NCBI GenBank assembly: GCA_003712055.1
Contig: RHLJ01000001.1
Span: forward strand, 1 to 64,000
Direction: 5' to 3'
DNA length: 64,000 nt
Source: Balneola sp.
GTDB lineage: Bacteria > Bacteroidota > Rhodothermia > Balneolales > Balneolaceae
Part shown: piece by piece, positions 27,392-52,953 of the stretch
Layout: every line of letters begins with the position of its first letter
Numbering within the stretch: the stretch's first letter is position 1
The notes under the pieces: model-generated
Told to the model about the DNA's origin: nothing
The model's database searches: none
What the model saw: the letters and a program-made list of their open reading frames with translations, nothing else
Program-made: the position numbers and the translations under genes

Positions 27392-29065
27392 ATGATTTCA
27401 TCTGCTCTCAACAAAGTTTTTCCAGCTGGTATATTCGTTCTTTTGGTGATGTTAGTATTAACTCATAACGTTGATGCCCAGTCTGTTATAAAAATCACCG
27501 AAGATGGTAAGGAGCTTGGTATCCCAAATGAATTAAAGGCTTCACTTACGTCAGCAAATGGGAGCGAAAATGAGATTTTAAAGCAGTGGTATGCTTCAAA
27601 AGGATTTCTTGCTGCTAAGATAAGGCAACTTGGAGAATTGCGATTTGAGATCAATAAAGGATGCCTGTTTCAGATTGAAAATGTGATGGTGCAATCTGAG
27701 GTCAATTCGAAGTATCGATTAGAAGGATTTGGTTCCTATTCCGATACAAAGCTTGAAGAAATCGCCGGTCAAGTTCTATCAGACTTTGAAGACGAAGGGT
27801 ATGCCTTTGCCAGTTTAGAGATCGAGCATATTGATCAACAAACAGGGAAATGTACCCTGGATATACATTTAAAGGTGAATGCAGGTCAGAAATACTACAC
27901 TTCTGAAATCCTATTCCTTGGAAACAGACTGAATAATCAAGCTTATCTTAAAAAGATTTCATCATTCCGTGATTCACTGCTCATTACTCCTGATTATCTG
28001 AAAGGTATCCAAGAACGATTGCTGGGGACTGAGCTTTTTGAGCAGGTATTCTATCCTGAAATTGTGATTGATTCATCATCAACTGTACTTTTGATTTCTG
28101 TACAAGAGCGCTCTTTGAACCAGTTTGATGGGCTCCTTGGATATGTTCCTGATCAGAATGGAGATGGGCAAATTGTTGGTAATTTTGAACTATCTCTATG
28201 GAACGTACTAAGCCAGGGCAACGGCATTGATTTGAATTATCAACGGTTACGACCTGAAACAACACGGTTGAATATTGGAGTTGAACAGCACTGGATAGAT
28301 CAGATACCTATTGGATTGGGTTTCAATTTCAACTTTTACCAGAATGATACTACTTACCAGACACGCGATCTCAGGTTGAGCTCTTTTTACCAGGTTTCTA
28401 ATAGAATGAGATTAACAGGTGCAATTGGCCAGATATCATCTACTTCATCCAGTTCAGCCATTACAAATCTTGAGCCTGATGGGAAGAAACAATATGCCGA
28501 GCTTGGTTTCAGGTATTCAACGCTGGATAACCCGGATGTGCCAACCCAAGGCAACCGTTTAGAGCTTAGTCTCGGAACTTCTGCAAAGGATATTGAGTCA
28601 GATTCTTCAAGGGTGATAGCACAGCGCTATGTGTATTCCAGTTTTTCTCAATTTATTCCGGTTTCCAGGAAAGGAGTTGTGGTAGTTTCTACCCAAGGAT
28701 TCTTTCTGAATGCCAATACTATTACAGAAAATGATCTTTATCGCTTCGGGGGAGCGTCTTCATTCAGGGGGTATGAGGAAGAGCAATTCACTGCTTCAAC
28801 ATTGGTGTGGGGAGAACTTGAGTATCGCTTTTTAATAAATAGATCATCTTATCTATTCGGTTTTGGAGCGTATGGCGGATATCATCGTCCTCGATTATTC
28901 AGTGAGATTGATAATAGTTTTAAAACCACTGATTACCTTTCATCCCTGGGATTTGGAATTAGCTATAAAGTTGCTGTAGGTCGATTAACCTTTACCTATG
29001 CTATTTCACCTGAAGAAACCATAGGTAATGGGAAGGTACATGTGGGTATTAATACGAAATTGTGA
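27392..29065 (+). CDS. Omp85/BamA-superfamily outer membrane protein
   Basis: 557 residues. The signal peptide ends NVDAQ. Two or three POTRA-like repeats cover about 30-230 (for example YYTSEILFLGNRLNNQAYLKK), followed by a 16-strand-type barrel to the C-terminus. The loop-6 motif of Omp85 proteins is visible as FRGY inside RFGGASSFRGYEEEQF. It lacks the five POTRA repeats of BamA and is closer in size to TamA or other accessory Omp85 members. It inserts or exports proteins or lipids at the outer membrane; the cargo is unknown. It converges with the TPR gene, whose stop is two bases away. Confidence 0.9.
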   Translation: MISSALNKVFPAGIFVLLVMLVLTHNVDAQSVIKITEDGKELGIPNELKASLTSANGSENEILKQWYASKGFLAAKIRQLGELRFEINKGCLFQIENVMVQSEVNSKYRLEGFGSYSDTKLEEIAGQVLSDFEDEGYAFASLEIEHIDQQTGKCTLDIHLKVNAGQKYYTSEILFLGNRLNNQAYLKKISSFRDSLLITPDYLKGIQERLLGTELFEQVFYPEIVIDSSSTVLLISVQERSLNQFDGLLGYVPDQNGDGQIVGNFELSLWNVLSQGNGIDLNYQRLRPETTRLNIGVEQHWIDQIPIGLGFNFNFYQNDTTYQTRDLRLSSFYQVSNRMRLTGAIGQISSTSSSSAITNLEPDGKKQYAELGFRYSTLDNPDVPTQGNRLELSLGTSAKDIESDSSRVIAQRYVYSSFSQFIPVSRKGVVVVSTQGFFLNANTITENDLYRFGGASSFRGYEEEQFTASTLVWGELEYRFLINRSSYLFGFGAYGGYHRPRLFSEIDNSFKTTDYLSSLGFGISYKVAVGRLTFTYAISPEETIGNGKVHVGINTKL

Positions 29066-29067
29066 TT

Positions 29068-30612
29068 TTATTCAGAGCAACTATTCGCTCTAATAGAATC
29101 AAGTTCTTCTGATTCCAATTCTAACTGGAAAGCTAAATTGAAATCAATACAAGCTTTTTCTTTTTCATCTTGCTCTAAATAGAGCTTACCTCTTTCTAAA
29201 TAAATTTGAGCATCGTTAGGGTAGAGCTCAATGGACATTGTAAAATCATTAATTGCTTCTTCAATTTTATTAAGATTAACTCTTGCCCGGGCTCTGTAAT
29301 CATAAGCTTGCGTAAAGCTTTCATCAAGAGAAATAGTTTTAGAGAACAAGGTTTCTGCCCCTTCAAAATCCTCTAGTTCAAACAGAGAATACCCATAGTA
29401 ATAGGTTAGGTTAGATGAAGTAGAATCGATGAGAAAGGTTCTTTCAAAGTATTCAAGGGAGGCCTGGTGTAATGTACTATCTTGAAGTGCGTATGCTTTA
29501 AACATGTTCGTCTCAAACGAAGTAGAATCTATATTCAGGGAAAGATCGAAATACTTGATGGCATCGCGATATCTTTCTTTGTAATAAAAGTTCTTTCCTA
29601 CCTCTAAAAGGTTTATCGGGTCAGACATTGTTAAAGAGTCATCTAGCAGGATATTAATAGCTTTGTCATATTCATAAATGTTTGTGTAGGATTGAGCCAG
29701 ATAATAGCTTTGATCAGTAAAATTCCCACCAAGCTCATAGTTTTTTTCGAAGGACCTAACCGCATTTACATCATCTTCGAGATACTGATAAGCAAGCCCC
29801 GAATTAAAATGAAGGTAAGCCTGAGTTGAATCTATATTTAAAGCGGTTTGGTAATCGTTTAGCGCTTCAGAAAATTTGCTCTGATAATAATAGGTAAGAC
29901 CCCGACCATTAAGTGAGGTGATGTTTACAGGGTCGTATTTTAAAGCTTCACTAAAATCTAGAATAGCTCCATTATAATCCCCGATACTTCTTTTAGCTAA
30001 TCCTCTGTTGCTAAGTGCCAAAACAAAACCTGGGTATCTTTCTATTGAAGTGGATAGATCTCCAATAGCTCCATAATAATCCCCAAGTAAATATTTACAA
30101 TACCCTCTATTATTATAGGTTGTAGTAAGTGTTGAATCGGGTACATTTGGAGTATTAATTATCTCTGAGTAAACAATATTACCTTCCTCGCAGCCTTTAG
30201 TGTTGGCTATTTCATTGGCATCCAATAACCGTTGATAACTATCCTTTTCTGTTTGTTCTTTTTGTTCCTGTTCTTGCTGTAGCATTACTTCCAGAAAAGC
30301 AGGGCAAGTCCGCAATAATTCATAGCCTATTTGTTCTCCAAACTCTTCATCTATCATCGATATATCAAATGCTTGTGTACTATCTGAACCAAATAGCACA
30401 AGTAAATCAGAGTTTTCTTCAAAAAAATTGACCAAACACTTTTCGAACTCCTCTTCAAATGAAGTAAGAGTACTATCACTCTGGAAATTTTTTATACAAT
30501 TACATGCTTCTTCACTTGCAATGGATACAGCTTCTTCATACTGAGCTGATGCATTTTTTGGGAGGATTAGGAGAGGCAACAAGCAAACGAGTAGAAAGAT
30601 TTTTTTCGGCAT
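29068..30612 (-). CDS. Secreted TPR-repeat protein
   Basis: About 514 residues from the chosen start (MPKKIFLLVC), which gives a clean signal peptide ending NASAQ. An in-frame start 64 codons upstream would run across the SAM riboswitch of the opposite strand and buries the signal peptide, so I reject it. About nine tetratricopeptide units follow from residue 130 to the end (patterns such as NRGLAKRSIGDYNGAILDFS). The N-terminal 120 residues contain a CNCIKNF cysteine motif and an acidic EQEQEQK stretch. TPR proteins are scaffolds; the partner is unknown. It is probably periplasmic. Confidence 0.9.
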   Translation of the reverse strand: MPKKIFLLVCLLPLLILPKNASAQYEEAVSIASEEACNCIKNFQSDSTLTSFEEEFEKCLVNFFEENSDLLVLFGSDSTQAFDISMIDEEFGEQIGYELLRTCPAFLEVMLQQEQEQKEQTEKDSYQRLLDANEIANTKGCEEGNIVYSEIINTPNVPDSTLTTTYNNRGYCKYLLGDYYGAIGDLSTSIERYPGFVLALSNRGLAKRSIGDYNGAILDFSEALKYDPVNITSLNGRGLTYYYQSKFSEALNDYQTALNIDSTQAYLHFNSGLAYQYLEDDVNAVRSFEKNYELGGNFTDQSYYLAQSYTNIYEYDKAINILLDDSLTMSDPINLLEVGKNFYYKERYRDAIKYFDLSLNIDSTSFETNMFKAYALQDSTLHQASLEYFERTFLIDSTSSNLTYYYGYSLFELEDFEGAETLFSKTISLDESFTQAYDYRARARVNLNKIEEAINDFTMSIELYPNDAQIYLERGKLYLEQDEKEKACIDFNLAFQLELESEELDSIRANSCSE

Positions 30613-30683
30613 ATGAATAGAATTTTGAAAGAAAGTAATTCTTTTTTTGTAGTTATCAATTATGTTATCTTTAAAACTGTTAA

Positions 30684-30799
30684 TGCTTATTAAGAAAGAC
30701 TGAGGGAATGGGCCCGATGAAGTCTTGGCAACCATTTCGATATAATCGGAAAAGGTGCCAAATCCCACTCTGAAAAAGAAGTTCAGAGATAGATAAGTG
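30684..30799 (+). promoter_or_regulatory. SAM-I (S-box) riboswitch upstream of metH
   Basis: The S-box core is visible on the plus strand: TGAGGGAATGGGCCCGATGA (30701-30720), then CTTGGCAACC and, after a P3 hairpin, GGTGCCAAATCCC. Helix P1 closes between CTTAT (30686-30690) and ATAAG (30793-30797). It ends 47 nt before the GTG start of the methionine synthase N-terminal gene. A weak 5-bp hairpin (AGTGA...TCACT) follows. No strong terminator is seen, so translational control is as likely as attenuation. S-adenosylmethionine binding would turn off metH. Confidence 0.92.
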
Positions 30800-30846
30800 A
30801 TCATTTTTTCACTCTTTGTTAATAAGCCTATCTAAATTTATTAAGA

Positions 30847-31851
30847 GTGAATATTAAAGAGCTATTACAGGAACGCATTTTGATACTTGATGGTGCTATG
30901 GGTACCATGATCCAGCGCCATCGACTTACTGAGGAAGATTTCAGAGGAGATCGATTCCGTTATTCCAACATAGATTTAAAAGGAAATAACGATCTGCTTT
31001 CAATTACACGTCCTGATATTATCCAGGGGATTCATGAAGAGTATTTAGAGGCAGGAGCTGATATTGTTGGCACCAATACATTCAGTGGAACAACGGTAGC
31101 ACAAGCCGATTATGAATTAGAATCAGCGGTTTATGATATCAATTATGAATCAGCAAGAATTGCTAAACTGGCTTGTGAGAAATACACTAAAAAAGACTCA
31201 TCAAAGCCTCGCTTTGTAGCTGGTGCTATGGGGCCTACGAACAAAACCTGTTCACTTTCACCCGACGTTTCACGCCCAGAGTATCGTGCCATCAATTTTG
31301 ATCAGCTTAAAGAAGCTTACAAATTACAAGCTCAGGGACTGATCGACGGCGGAGCAGATGTATTAATCATCGAAACCATTTTCGATACATTAAATGCAAA
31401 ATCTGCGCTATTTGCAGTACTTGAGCTCTATGAGGAAACAGGCACTGAACGTCCCATCATGATTTCGGGAACCATTACGGACGCCAGTGGACGAACGTTA
31501 TCAGGCCAAACCGTTGAGGCATTCCTGATTTCATTATCACATGCCCCACTTCTTAGCATTGGTTTTAATTGTGCGCTGGGAGCTAAACAACTTAAACCGT
31601 ACCTGAAAAACCTGGCTGATCGATCTCCATTCTTTATCAGTGCTTATCCAAATGCAGGATTACCTAATGAATTTGGTGAGTATGATCAGGGGCCAGATGC
31701 AATGGCAAAGGAAGTTGAGGCATACCTACAAGATGGAATTGTCAATATTTTAGGTGGGTGTTGTGGAACTGATCCTGAACACATTAAGAAAATGGTGGAA
31801 GTTGCTTCTCGATATGAGCCGAGAAGAATAACCAAAGAAATCGTAGCCTGA
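30847..31851 (+). CDS. metH: Methionine synthase, homocysteine-binding N-terminal half as a separate gene
   Basis: 334 residues covering only the Hcy-binding barrel of cobalamin-dependent methionine synthase. The opening is [11 protein letters not shown]. The zinc cysteines are visible as [11 protein letters not shown] and [10 protein letters not shown]. The start is a GTG 47 nt downstream of a SAM-I riboswitch. The stop codon overlaps the ATG of the next gene by one base (TGATG), so both halves are translationally coupled. Together they total 1228 residues, almost exactly the length of the single-chain E. coli MetH (1227). The split falls between the homocysteine and folate modules. Confidence 0.95.
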
Positions 31852-34535
31852 TGAAACCGAATCCAATTACACTTAGTGGGCTGGAGCCTCTTATTATTAC
31901 TCCAGATTCTAACTTTGTTAATGTTGGAGAACGAACCAATGTTACCGGGTCGAAGCGGTTCTTAAATCTAATCAAAGCCCAAGATTATACAACGGCACTT
32001 GAAGTGGCTTTAGACCAGGTTCGGGGTGGCGCCCAGATTCTGGATGTAAACATGGATGAAGGGATGCTGGACAGTGCCCAGGAGATGACCACCTTCCTGA
32101 ATCTGATTGCTTCTGAGCCGGAAATTGCCCGGATTCCCATTATGATAGATTCCTCCAAGTGGGAGGTGATAGTAGCTGGATTGAAATGTATTCAAGGGAA
32201 GGGAGTAGTTAATTCCATCAGTCTAAAAGATGGGGAAGAGGAATTCCTCAAACGCGCCCGGATTATCAGACGTTTTGGAGCAGCTGTAATAGCTATGGCC
32301 TTTGACGAAGAAGGTCAGGCAGATAGTTTCGAACGAAGAAAGGAAATTTGTGACCGATCGTATCGGTTGTTGGTCGATGAAGTTGGCTTTGATCCATCCG
32401 ATATAATTTTAGACCCGAATATTTTTCCGGTTGCTACAGGAATGGAAGAGCACCGTCGAAATGCATTAGATTTCTTTCTAGCCGCGAAATGGATCAGAGA
32501 AAATCTCCCTGGAGCTCATATCATAGGGGGGGTAAGCAATGTGTCTTTTTCATTTAGAGGTAATAACCCAGTAAGAGAGGCGATGCATTCTGCCTTTCTC
32601 TATCACGGCATTCAGCATGGAATGGATATGGGAATTGTGAACCCTACTCAGCTGGAAGTGTATGACGAAATCCCGAAAGAGTTACTCGAACGGGTTGAAG
32701 ATGTCCTTCTGGACAGAAGGGATGACGCAACGGAGCGGCTACTTGAAATTGCTGAAAAGTACAGGGATTCAGGAGAAAAGAGGGAAAAGGAAACCGAAGA
32801 ATGGCGACTTGGTACGGTTGAAGAACGGTTGAGCCATTCCCTGGTCAAAGGAATTACCGATCATATTGAAGAAGATACCGAAGAAGCTCGGGTGAAAATC
32901 GAGAGTCCTCTGGAAGTTATTGAAGGGCCATTAATGGATGGTATGAATATCGTTGGAGATCTATTCGGTTCCGGAAAAATGTTTCTGCCACAGGTGGTGA
33001 AAAGCGCCCGGGTCATGAAACAGGCAGTAGCTTACCTGACTCCATTTTTAGAAGAGGAGAAAAAGAAAAACAAGGATGTAGCACAACGCTCAAAAGTACT
33101 GTTAGCTACGGTAAAAGGAGATGTGCATGATATCGGGAAGAACATTGTAGGGGTGGTTCTCGCCTGTAATAATTTTGATATCGTCGATTTGGGAGTGATG
33201 GTGCCCACCGACAAAATTCTTGATGAAGCGGAAAAGGAACAGGCTGATATCATTGGGTTGAGTGGCTTGATTACTCCTTCACTAGATGAAATGGTAGGAG
33301 TTGCCAAAGAGATGCAGCGAAGAAAGATGAGAACTCCTTTATTAATTGGAGGAGCAACGACTTCAAAAATTCACACTGCAGTAAAAATTGACCCTAATTA
33401 TGACTCCGCAGTAGTGCATGTATTAGATGCTTCTCGTTCGGTAACTGTGTGCAGCGATTTACTAAGTACTACCAATAAAAAACGTGTTTCTAAATCCATC
33501 AAGCAGGAATATGAAAAAATGAGGGAAGAGCATGCTGCAAGGACCTCAAGAAAAAAGATACTTTCTTATAACACAACACTTTCTAACAGGACGGATATTG
33601 ATTGGGAGAATACAGAGTATCAGAAGCCTGCTTTTGTCGGAAAGAAGGTGTTTGAGGATGTAGATCTGAATGAGCTTCGGAATTTCATCGACTGGTCACC
33701 TTTCTTCAGAACCTGGATGCTTACGGGGAAATACCCGGCTATTCTTAAGGATGAAAATGTTGGAGAACAAGCTCAGGACTTGTTTAATGATGCAAAGGAA
33801 ATGCTGGATGAGGTGATTTCTAAGAAATTACTCCGAGCTAAATCGGTAATTGGGTTGTTTCCTGCCAATAGCTTTGGAGATGATATTATTCTTTTTGAAG
33901 ACGAAGCCAGAACTAAACAATTGAGCAAGTTTCATTTCCTCAGGCAGCAAACTCAAAAAAGAGGGGATCAACCAAACTCATCCCTTGCTGATTATGTCGC
34001 TCCATGGGATACGGGTAAACCGGATTATATGGGCTTATTTGCGGTAACATCTGGTCTCGGTATCGAGGAACTGATAAAGAAATACGAATCTGAAAATGAT
34101 GACTATAAGTCTATCATGATTAAAGCATTGGCCGATCGCCTGGCGGAAGCCCATGCCGAATACATGCATTATAAAATCAGGACCGAGTTTTGGGGCTACG
34201 CTCCAAATGAAGGTTTTGATAATGAAGAACTCATTGCTGAAAAGTACCAGGGAATTCGGCCAGCACCTGGATATCCTGCATGTCCTGATCATACTGAGAA
34301 ACGAACTCTATTTGATGTGCTGGAGGTGGAGAAGAATACGGGCATCTCGCTAACGGAATCGTTTGCTATGTATCCGGCCAGTTCTGTAAGTGGCTTCTAT
34401 TTCTCGAATCCTAAGTCGAGGTATTTTGGAGTGGGAAAAATAGATAAGGATCAGGTTATTAATTATTCAGAACGAAAAGGGCAGAGTATTGAAAAAACCG
34501 AGAAATGGCTGGCTCCAAATTTGAGCTATAAATGA
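31851..34535 (+). CDS. metH: Methionine synthase, folate-, cobalamin- and activation-domain half
   Basis: 894 residues. Order: pterin-binding barrel (about 15-290, [16 protein letters not shown]); helical cap and cobalamin domain (about 330-560) with [13 protein letters not shown], whose His is the lower ligand of cobalamin; and the C-terminal AdoMet-binding reactivation domain (about 580-894) with [15 protein letters not shown]. It methylates homocysteine delivered on the partner chain, using methyl-THF. It is controlled by the upstream SAM-I riboswitch through coupling to the first half. metF follows after a 115-bp gap that holds a family A repeat. Confidence 0.96.
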
Positions 34536-34650: not shown

Positions 34651-35607
34651 ATGAAAGTAACCGACTATTTTAACCAGGCAAATGGCGAAACCCTTTTCAC
34701 GTTTGAGGTTTTACCTCCATTAAAAGGTCAGAACATTCGAACACTATTCGATCATATCGATCCGCTTATGGAGTTTAATCCTCCATTTATTGATGTGACT
34801 TACCACAGAGAGGAATATTCCTACAAGAAACATTCGAATGGTCTATTGGAGCGAAAAACTGTTCGTAAACGCCCGGGCACGGTTGGAATGTGTGCTGCTA
34901 TCCAGAACCATTATAATGTGGATGCTGTCCCTCATATCATTTGTGGGGGGTTCACCAGGGAGGAAACAGAAAATGCGTTGATTGACCTTAACTTCCTTGG
35001 GATTGATAATGTGTTGGTGCTGCAGGGGGATGTAAGGAAACCTGATCGCGAGTTTATCCCTGAGGAAAATGGGCATGCCTATGCTTCTGAGTTGCTGGGC
35101 CAGGTTGTAGAGATGAATAACGGGATTTATTTAGATGATGAAATCGAAAATGCTCAACCTTCCAATTTTTGTATTGGTGTTGCAGGGTACCCCGAAAAGC
35201 ATACCAATGCTCCCAATATGGAATCGGATCTTCGCTACTTAAAGAAGAAAGTAGAAGGGGGCGCTGATTACATTGTTACCCAGATGTTTTTCGATAACCA
35301 GAAGTATTTTGATTTTGTGAAGTCATGCAGGGCTATAGGAATCGAAGTTCCTATCGTACCGGGACTTAAGCCTATAACAACCTTAAAGCAGATCACGCTT
35401 CTTCCAGACTTATTTCACATCGACATTCCTGAACCACTCACTAATGAACTGGAAAAGTGTAAGGATAATGAAAGTGCTCGGGAAGTAGGGATTGAGTGGG
35501 CCATAAAGCAATCAAAGGAACTGATTGAGTTTGGTGTACCTACGCTACACTATTATTCAATGGGCAAGTCTTTATCCGTGTATGAAGTAGCTAAAGAAGT
35601 GTTTTAA
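34651..35607 (+). CDS. metF: Methylenetetrahydrofolate reductase
   Basis: 318 residues of the FAD-binding TIM barrel. The family opening FTFEVLPPLKG carries the catalytic Glu, and the flavin and folate segments FIDVTYHREE, GIDNVLVLQGD and YIVTQMFFDNQKYFDF are present. It reduces methylene-THF to methyl-THF, the methyl donor for the MetH pair just upstream, and is probably cotranscribed with it. The last 72 bases are duplicated in decayed form at 38901-38970, beyond a three-gene island, so the current 3' end marks an insertion junction. Confidence 0.96.
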   Translation: MKVTDYFNQANGETLFTFEVLPPLKGQNIRTLFDHIDPLMEFNPPFIDVTYHREEYSYKKHSNGLLERKTVRKRPGTVGMCAAIQNHYNVDAVPHIICGGFTREETENALIDLNFLGIDNVLVLQGDVRKPDREFIPEENGHAYASELLGQVVEMNNGIYLDDEIENAQPSNFCIGVAGYPEKHTNAPNMESDLRYLKKKVEGGADYIVTQMFFDNQKYFDFVKSCRAIGIEVPIVPGLKPITTLKQITLLPDLFHIDIPEPLTNELEKCKDNESAREVGIEWAIKQSKELIEFGVPTLHYYSMGKSLSVYEVAKEVF

Positions 35608-52580: not shown

Positions 52581-52668
52581 GGAGAGGTGCCGGAGTGGTC
52601 GAACGGGCTCGCCTGGAAAGCGTGTGTGCCTCACAAGGGTACCGAGGGTTCGAATCCCTCCCTCTCCG
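52581..52668 (+). tRNA. tRNA-Ser (anticodon GGA)
   Basis: 88 nt with a seven-pair acceptor stem GGAGAGG/CCTCTCC, discriminator G, T-arm GAGGG-TTCGAAT-CCCTC and the long variable arm of a class II tRNA. The anticodon loop CTGGAAA reads GGA (52615-52617), decoding UCC and UCU. The second pair of the anticodon stem is a T-T mismatch (CTCGC against GCGTG). CCA is not encoded. A small hairpin CTCTAC...GTAGAG follows at 52669-52694; the rest of the gap to 52953 shows nothing I can support. Confidence 0.95.
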
Positions 52669-52953
52669 CTCTACTTTGCCAAGGCTTTGTAGAGCAGACT
52701 CAGTCAGGAAAATCGACCAAGAGTCTTTTTTAAACTGTATTTATAACACCCTATTGTGCAACTGTAAATAATTGGGCTTCAACAAAAAACTGCACATAAA
52801 GTTTAGAATTTATCACTACTTTCAAGAAATATTAGAGTAATCTACAGGCATATGGGTAAACATTGAATTGTAAGAATTTAATTTGCATTCAGGATCCCCT
52901 TTCTTAGGTTTATTAGAATTAACATTTCAAATCAAAACTCAATCAAGTAACAG

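Follow-up and report, generated by a model that had tools for sequence, protein, structure and literature searches.

The metH riboswitch and its neighborhood

The window, by which we mean the whole 64,000-nucleotide stretch of Balneola sp. DNA analyzed here, harbors a methionine synthase gene, metH, that is split into two adjacent open reading frames (ORFs). Together these cover all MetH domains, in line with the initial annotation, and where they meet, the stop of the N-terminal half and the ATG of the C-terminal part overlap (TGATG). The metF gene follows, and a TPR gene diverges from metH on the opposite strand (Table 1). In an Infernal search against Rfam 15, the window yielded a single riboswitch, SAM (RF00162), for which all 108 positions of the model align (1–108). 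The match scores 82.5 bits (gathering score 44.4; E value 5.9e-18), far beyond chance. The alignment shows P1 to P4 and intact SAM-I core strings (GAGGGA, GGCCC, UGAAG, GGCAACC, AGGUGCCAA, and UCC), and the GTG start of metH is located 47 nt 3′ of the aptamer end; split metH and metF provide the gene context of a SAM-I switch. Spermidine-binding SAM-I variants carry changes at certain positions, according to the accessible part of the source (PMC10853860). The aptamer in the window belongs to the known SAM-I class, and its ligand is presumably SAM.

The initial annotation had placed an S-box core with a closing P1 47 nt before metH, and the RF00162 match bears this out; the SAM-I model search that it proposed gave a score above, not below, the threshold. 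Its interval begins exactly at the aptamer start, 30684, and ends at 30846, the base before the metH GTG. A promoter-like element, which we take to be of the Bacteroidota −33/−7 type, lies 5′ of the aptamer and has a short spacing of 16 in the window. The best match in a raw promoter scan, run with no shuffle baseline, fell 19–28 nt 5′ of the P1 GC in 20 of 22 leaders.

Table 1. Coordinates of the features at the metH locus
Feature	Position	Strand	Basis
Divergent TPR gene, signal-peptide-like start (judged by eye)	29068..30612	-	ORF list, domain search
Open frame that would falsely extend the TPR gene by 64 residues over the riboswitch	30613..30804	-	ORF list
Promoter-like TTG...TATCTTTA	30647..30673	+	Motif scan of leaders
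SAM-I (S-box) aptamer	30684..30799	+	RF00162, 82.5 bits
P1 5′ strand	30684..30691	+	Infernal alignment
Aptamer 5′ strand GCUUAUUAAGAAAGA (P1 and P2 beginning), anti-P1 partner in the ligand-free model	30685..30699	+	Folding/complementarity
P1 3′ strand	30792..30799	+	Infernal alignment
Start-codon sequestor, 5′ arm	30808..30816	+	Complementarity/folding
Anti-P1 element UCUUUGUUAAUAAGC, repeat of the P1 3′ strand	30813..30827	+	Complementarity, shuffles, pair counts
Start-codon sequestor, 3′ arm, includes GTG 30847-30849	30843..30851	+	Complementarity/folding
metH N-terminal half, homocysteine S-methyltransferase, PF02574 only, 334 aa, GTG start	30847..31851	+	ORF, domain search
metH C-terminal part, 894 aa, pterin (methyl-THF), B12 and activation domains	31851..34535	+	ORF, domain search
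metF, methylenetetrahydrofolate reductase	34651..35607	+	ORF, domain search

The reading frame of the TPR gene (29068–30804, minus strand) remains open across the aptamer, and the stretch beyond its start at 30612 amounts to exactly 64 codons, as had been noted. The start proposed at 30612, with the extension regarded as false, agrees with the signal-peptide-like N-terminus and with the relatives. Among 64 riboswitch loci a similar TPR gene (26–29% identity) lies upstream in only two, G001 and G011; the TPR-like ORF has its first start codon 5′ of the aptamer, at a distance of 112 and 102 nt, respectively, and neither shows an extension. Based on these two relatives, the 64-residue extension is best explained by a frame open by chance, and the case shows how automated annotation could extend an antisense gene so that it runs over a riboswitch. 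A POTRA-like-domain protein (27392–29065) adjoins the TPR gene, and the sole tRNA that ARAGORN found in the window is a tRNA-Ser (GGA) at 52581–52669.

The 92 genomes of the window's family contain 28 full-length split metH-N genes, defined by an open frame of at most 381 aa. SAM-I is located directly 5′ of 22 of these, spanning seven genera, with an aptamer-to-start distance of 42–51 nt in 21 leaders and 134 nt in G075. The six genes with no SAM-I directly before them are all from genus g5 (L078, L186–L190). The start codon is GTG in all 22 riboswitch-bearing metH-N genes, a codon that opens 3 of the 42 long ORFs in the window, and ATG in all six genes lacking the riboswitch. Two g5 genomes, G006 and G024, contain metH-N matches that are interrupted by stops. 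Among the 40 family genomes with a fused metH (frame >1100 aa), none has a SAM-I adjoining that gene and four have no SAM-I match at all; five further genomes with metH frames of 423–859 aa were placed in neither class.

A quick, unrooted MetH tree with 125 rows unites all 28 split proteins in a single clan (SH-aLRT 97), with the g5 genes nested inside; the 17 fused proteins make up a separate clan (99) that is joined with Bacteroidota rows (90). The single clan and the nesting of g5 indicate that split metH has one origin in the family and that genus g5 probably lost its metH riboswitch. Going by this outgroup-less tree, the split gene was possibly acquired by transfer, together with its riboswitch. 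The nearest named MetH relatives among the matches listed share at most 66% identity, a list from which close records may be left out.

Two overlapping predicted helices in the metH leader

The leader 3′ of the aptamer contains two segments with partners elsewhere in the RNA. The anti-P1 element is complementary to the aptamer 5′ strand except for one G-G, and this complementarity extends past P1 into P2. The 5′ arm of the start sequestor is complementary to the segment that holds the GTG. The string CUCUUU is common to the element and the arm and cannot pair in both at once. Both helices are possible in every one of the family's 22 metH leaders, including G075 (L177), where an insertion of ~85 nt falls within the sequestor loop and leaves both arms in place. 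CUCUUU, AUAAGC, and the start context GAGUG are conserved between aptamer and start. A loop motif, GC(C/U)AAUC (GCCTATC at 30826–30832), is also conserved in family metH leaders and had no pairing partner by eye in either model.

The anti-P1 pairing is exceptional. In each of 12 leaders examined, no more than 1 of 300 shuffled platforms paired equally well with the 5′ strand, and the shuffle-based z values, which differ slightly between runs, averaged −4.95 and were below −3 in all 12 metH leaders. When folded without constraint, the 5′ strand lay in the anti-P1 helix in the minimum free energy structure of 21 of 21 leaders (G075 left out). The pair count across 21 leaders (91.7% of 312 cells standard) was reached by none of 500 shuffles. 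Co-variation within the family alone is weak: changes on both sides are found in eight cells, at one pair; 42 of 500 permutations were as low as the cognate pairing; and sliding the partner by +1 column gave an equal co-variation score, but only 57% of cells then paired. These data point to a platform segment that would pair with the aptamer 5′ strand to the exclusion of P1, as in E. coli thiC.

The P1 3′ strand, by contrast with its 5′ counterpart, pairs no better than chance in the same metH leaders (mean z3 of −0.21, 0 of 12 below −3), and a P1-3′-strand antisequestor was rejected on this basis. These values also bear on a conventional reading, in which SAM-I switches through downstream pairing of the P1 3′ strand and the 5′-strand match is a mere sequence echo of P1. 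A right-shoulder-of-P1 antiterminator does exist in yitJ. One has likewise been described for a SAM-I variant, as stated in the accessible part of PMC10853860. We regard the conventional reading as very improbable for metH, given the chance-level pairing of the 3′ strand and a 5′-strand duplex that reaches past P1 into P2 and co-varies in Bacteroidota (see below).

The start sequestor is the more modest of the two helices by these measures. Its pair count (84.2% of 202 cells) was matched by 24 of 500 shuffles, we looked for co-variation and found little (83/500 for the score), and in one group the arms match another group's starts better than their own. Between 0 and 78 of 300 shuffles were as good, making the sequestor unexceptional in several of the 12 leaders. 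In the folds, forcing P1 paired the start with the platform more often: 16 of 21 leaders had it buried and five did not, compared to 4 of 21 paired when unforced (G075 left out). The energetic cost of forcing P1 ranged from 0.8 to 10.8 kcal/mol across the 21 leaders and is 4.4 in the window. The mean probability that AGAGUG is unpaired was 0.14 to 0.54 in free folds versus 0.00 to 0.41 in P1-forced folds; it dropped in 12 of 12 leaders, but little in G005, G019, and G032. No Shine-Dalgarno sequence was seen before the metH GTG at 30847, and the window as a whole shows no Shine-Dalgarno excess (2 of 41 long ORFs versus a background of 9%), so covering the start codon itself would be a reasonable way to block initiation.

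We found no hairpin with a U-run kept among relatives between the aptamer and the metH start; runs of at least five U occur in 7 of the 22 leaders. An intrinsic terminator before metH was rejected for want of one kept across the 22. This is consistent with the lack of a strong terminator reported in the initial annotation, and its suggestion of translational control is supported by the predicted structures and the comparison of leaders. The genome's other SAM-I (C2:239789–239910, in locus L055, C2:237700–240700) has a strong intrinsic terminator and precedes metY, presumably a metY-like O-acetylhomocysteine sulfhydrylase gene. Three metY leaders of the clade were folded and carry strong terminators, and many more show one by eye. 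The anti-P1 z values of the clade's metY leaders average −0.31, with 0 of 52 below −3. In several other genera (L003–L065) the metY match starts 580–1116 nt past the aptamer, indicating that something sits between riboswitch and metY there.

The anti-P1 element across Bacteroidota

Of 80 metH loci from named genomes, almost all carrying a Bacteroidota label, 67 were matched by a model built from 21 family leaders; 62 of the 80 loci are split and the rest are fused or cut. Fifty of 69 model matches could be analyzed, one being dropped for lacking the GGTGC landmark, two because no P1 was found, and 16 for lying outside 15–260 nt from the start. As the platform mimic can pass for P1, the P1 end was set by an earliest-match finder, which at 13 loci agreed exactly with the Rfam ends in 10 and was off by 7 (L126), 13 (L156), and 38 nt (L112) in the others. 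With Rfam ends, the anti-P1 duplex beyond the aptamer reached at least −12 kcal in 12 of the 13 (−6.9 in L112).

The anti-P1 z value was below −2 in 35 and below −3 in 27 of the 50 usable Bacteroidota metH leaders, and the element forms 17 contiguous pairs in Algibacter (L137) and in a Flavobacteriaceae MAG (L109). At several positions, both partners of a pair differ among leaders, in a set that carries 46 hand-assigned genus labels. Cognate pairs of strands scored −13.40 kcal compared to −10.08 (sd 0.37) for permuted ones, and none of 500 permutations was as good. Shuffled-platform and coding controls showed no cognate advantage. A start sequestor using the same segment was found in only 6 of the 50 leaders (e.g., L096, Hymenobacter L147 and L156, and Tenacibaculum L132 and L155), and thus the output step may differ in these bacteria. 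ATG starts were assigned in 48 of the 50 by a script that prefers ATG.

We also compared metH with other SAM-I leaders in a phylum sample of 77, which comprises 60 places hand-picked for family spread among the matches listed and 18 of 30 further loci with estimated aptamer starts, less one duplicate (L280, identical to L212). Here metY-like denotes the best tblastn match among five queries, in some cases at ~30% identity. The z value was below −2 in 7 of 9 metH, 6 of 50 metY-like, and 4 of 18 other leaders, and strong terminators were present in 1 of 9, 28 of 50, and 2 of 18, respectively. These counts place the anti-P1 element mostly in metH leaders. That it is a general property of SAM-I was rejected, with 0 of 52 clade metY and 2 of 50 phylum metY-like leaders below −3. 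In the Cyclobacteriaceae metH leaders L116, L142, L101, and L118 the anti-P1 element is followed immediately by a U-run.

It seems to us somewhat better than an even bet that the metH SAM-I leaders of Bacteroidota and of the window's lineage share one inherited platform, in which the P1 3′ strand occurs a second time and this extra copy competes for the aptamer 5′ strand, unlike the terminators of the clade's metY leaders. In the window's family, release of this copy would hide a start that lacks a Shine-Dalgarno sequence.

Predicted switching and comparison with known systems

The aptamer, the two helices and their overlap, their conservation, and the co-variation seen in Bacteroidota for the anti-P1 helix were computed here; from these we infer SAM binding, the direction of control, and translation as the controlled step. 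We favor, with a probability of roughly 0.7, a translational OFF switch in which an anti-P1 antisequestor acts on SAM-I. At low SAM, the aptamer 5′ strand, comprising P1 and the beginning of P2, would pair with the anti-P1 element; this would dismantle the aptamer, occupy the element, and leave the GTG more exposed (ON). At high SAM, P1 to P4 would form and free the element, whereupon the sequestor arms would pair and bury the GTG (OFF). Translation of the first metH half would be repressed in this manner and probably that of the second as well, as the overlapping stop and start of the halves suggest a coupled shut-off. The halves are further apart in three g4 genomes, and such coupling is therefore not general.

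Control might instead be exerted at the level of transcription, with SAM-bound RNA leading to termination, either intrinsic or by Rho at the untranslated leader, and the start hairpin being secondary. The clade's metY leaders with their strong terminators, three folded and many judged by eye, lend this some plausibility, as does the thiC switch, which according to the accessible part of its description acts also through Rho (PMC5234074). We nevertheless consider it unlikely, because no U-run is kept between aptamer and start in the 22 family leaders and strong terminators are rarer among the phylum-sample metH leaders than among the metY-like ones (1/9 versus 28/50). The logic could also be reversed, such that formation of the anti-P1 helix turns metH off and SAM switches metH on, and the terminator-like arrangement of element and U-run in some Bacteroidota, such as Algoriphagus (L116), would suit that. 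However, the element is followed in the window by GCCTATC rather than a U-run, the other family leaders likewise have none there, and the start is buried more often once P1 has formed. SAM repression of methionine synthesis is, moreover, the usual logic, and we give the reversed scheme very little credence.

The SAM-I switches characterized before the Xanthomonas study all used a Rho-independent terminator, as stated in the accessible part of that work (PMC7270179). The leader in the window resembles the B. subtilis yitJ type in aptamer architecture, core, and control of a methionine gene. It differs from terminator-type SAM-I in having no terminator and in that the strand predicted to be captured is the 5′ one of P1 and P2. 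SAM-I Xcc of the Xanthomonas met operon is described in the same source as translational, with a hidden Shine-Dalgarno sequence that is freed by uncharged initiator tRNA, upstream of metA (PMC7270179). The window leader shares with it the lack of an intrinsic terminator and may also resemble it in hiding the start codon in a platform hairpin and in acting on translation. It differs in its gene, metH, in a platform predicted to pair with the aptamer 5′ strand, and in having no Shine-Dalgarno sequence before the GTG. Barrick and Breaker predicted translational control to be the commonest outside Firmicutes, and structures hiding the ribosome-binding site were not modelled in the portion available (PMC2258182).

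The switching principle of the platform model is the same as that of the E. coli TPP switch thiC, in which a long-range anti-P1 stem, apparently C7–G16 with ~146–154, excludes both P1 and the stem sequestering the ribosome-binding site, as given in the accessible text (PMC5234074). The thiC switch has a TPP aptamer, resides in a host that uses Shine-Dalgarno sequences, and is not homologous to the one in the window. The Bacteroidota metH SAM-I leaders share with the window leader the gene, the aptamer, and a co-varying anti-P1 helix but have mostly been assigned ATG starts, show a same-segment start sequestor in only 6 of 50, and in some cases accompany a fused metH.

The literature searched, mostly outside subscription journals, yielded no description of an anti-P1 SAM-I platform or, for this lineage, of metH being regulated by SAM-I. 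What is new is thus the expression platform, comprising anti-P1 element and start sequestor, while the SAM-I class is known. The pairing of a metY controlled by a terminator with a metH controlled, as predicted, at its start codon within one genome would illustrate how one aptamer class serves two outputs. Most studied SAM-I switches end transcription, and in the literature searched, seen in part, the Xanthomonas switch is the one characterized translational case. To these the metH leader would add a structurally different platform. Its anti-P1 helix is conserved and co-varies across dozens of genera, and the window that bears it gives no sign that Shine-Dalgarno sequences are used.
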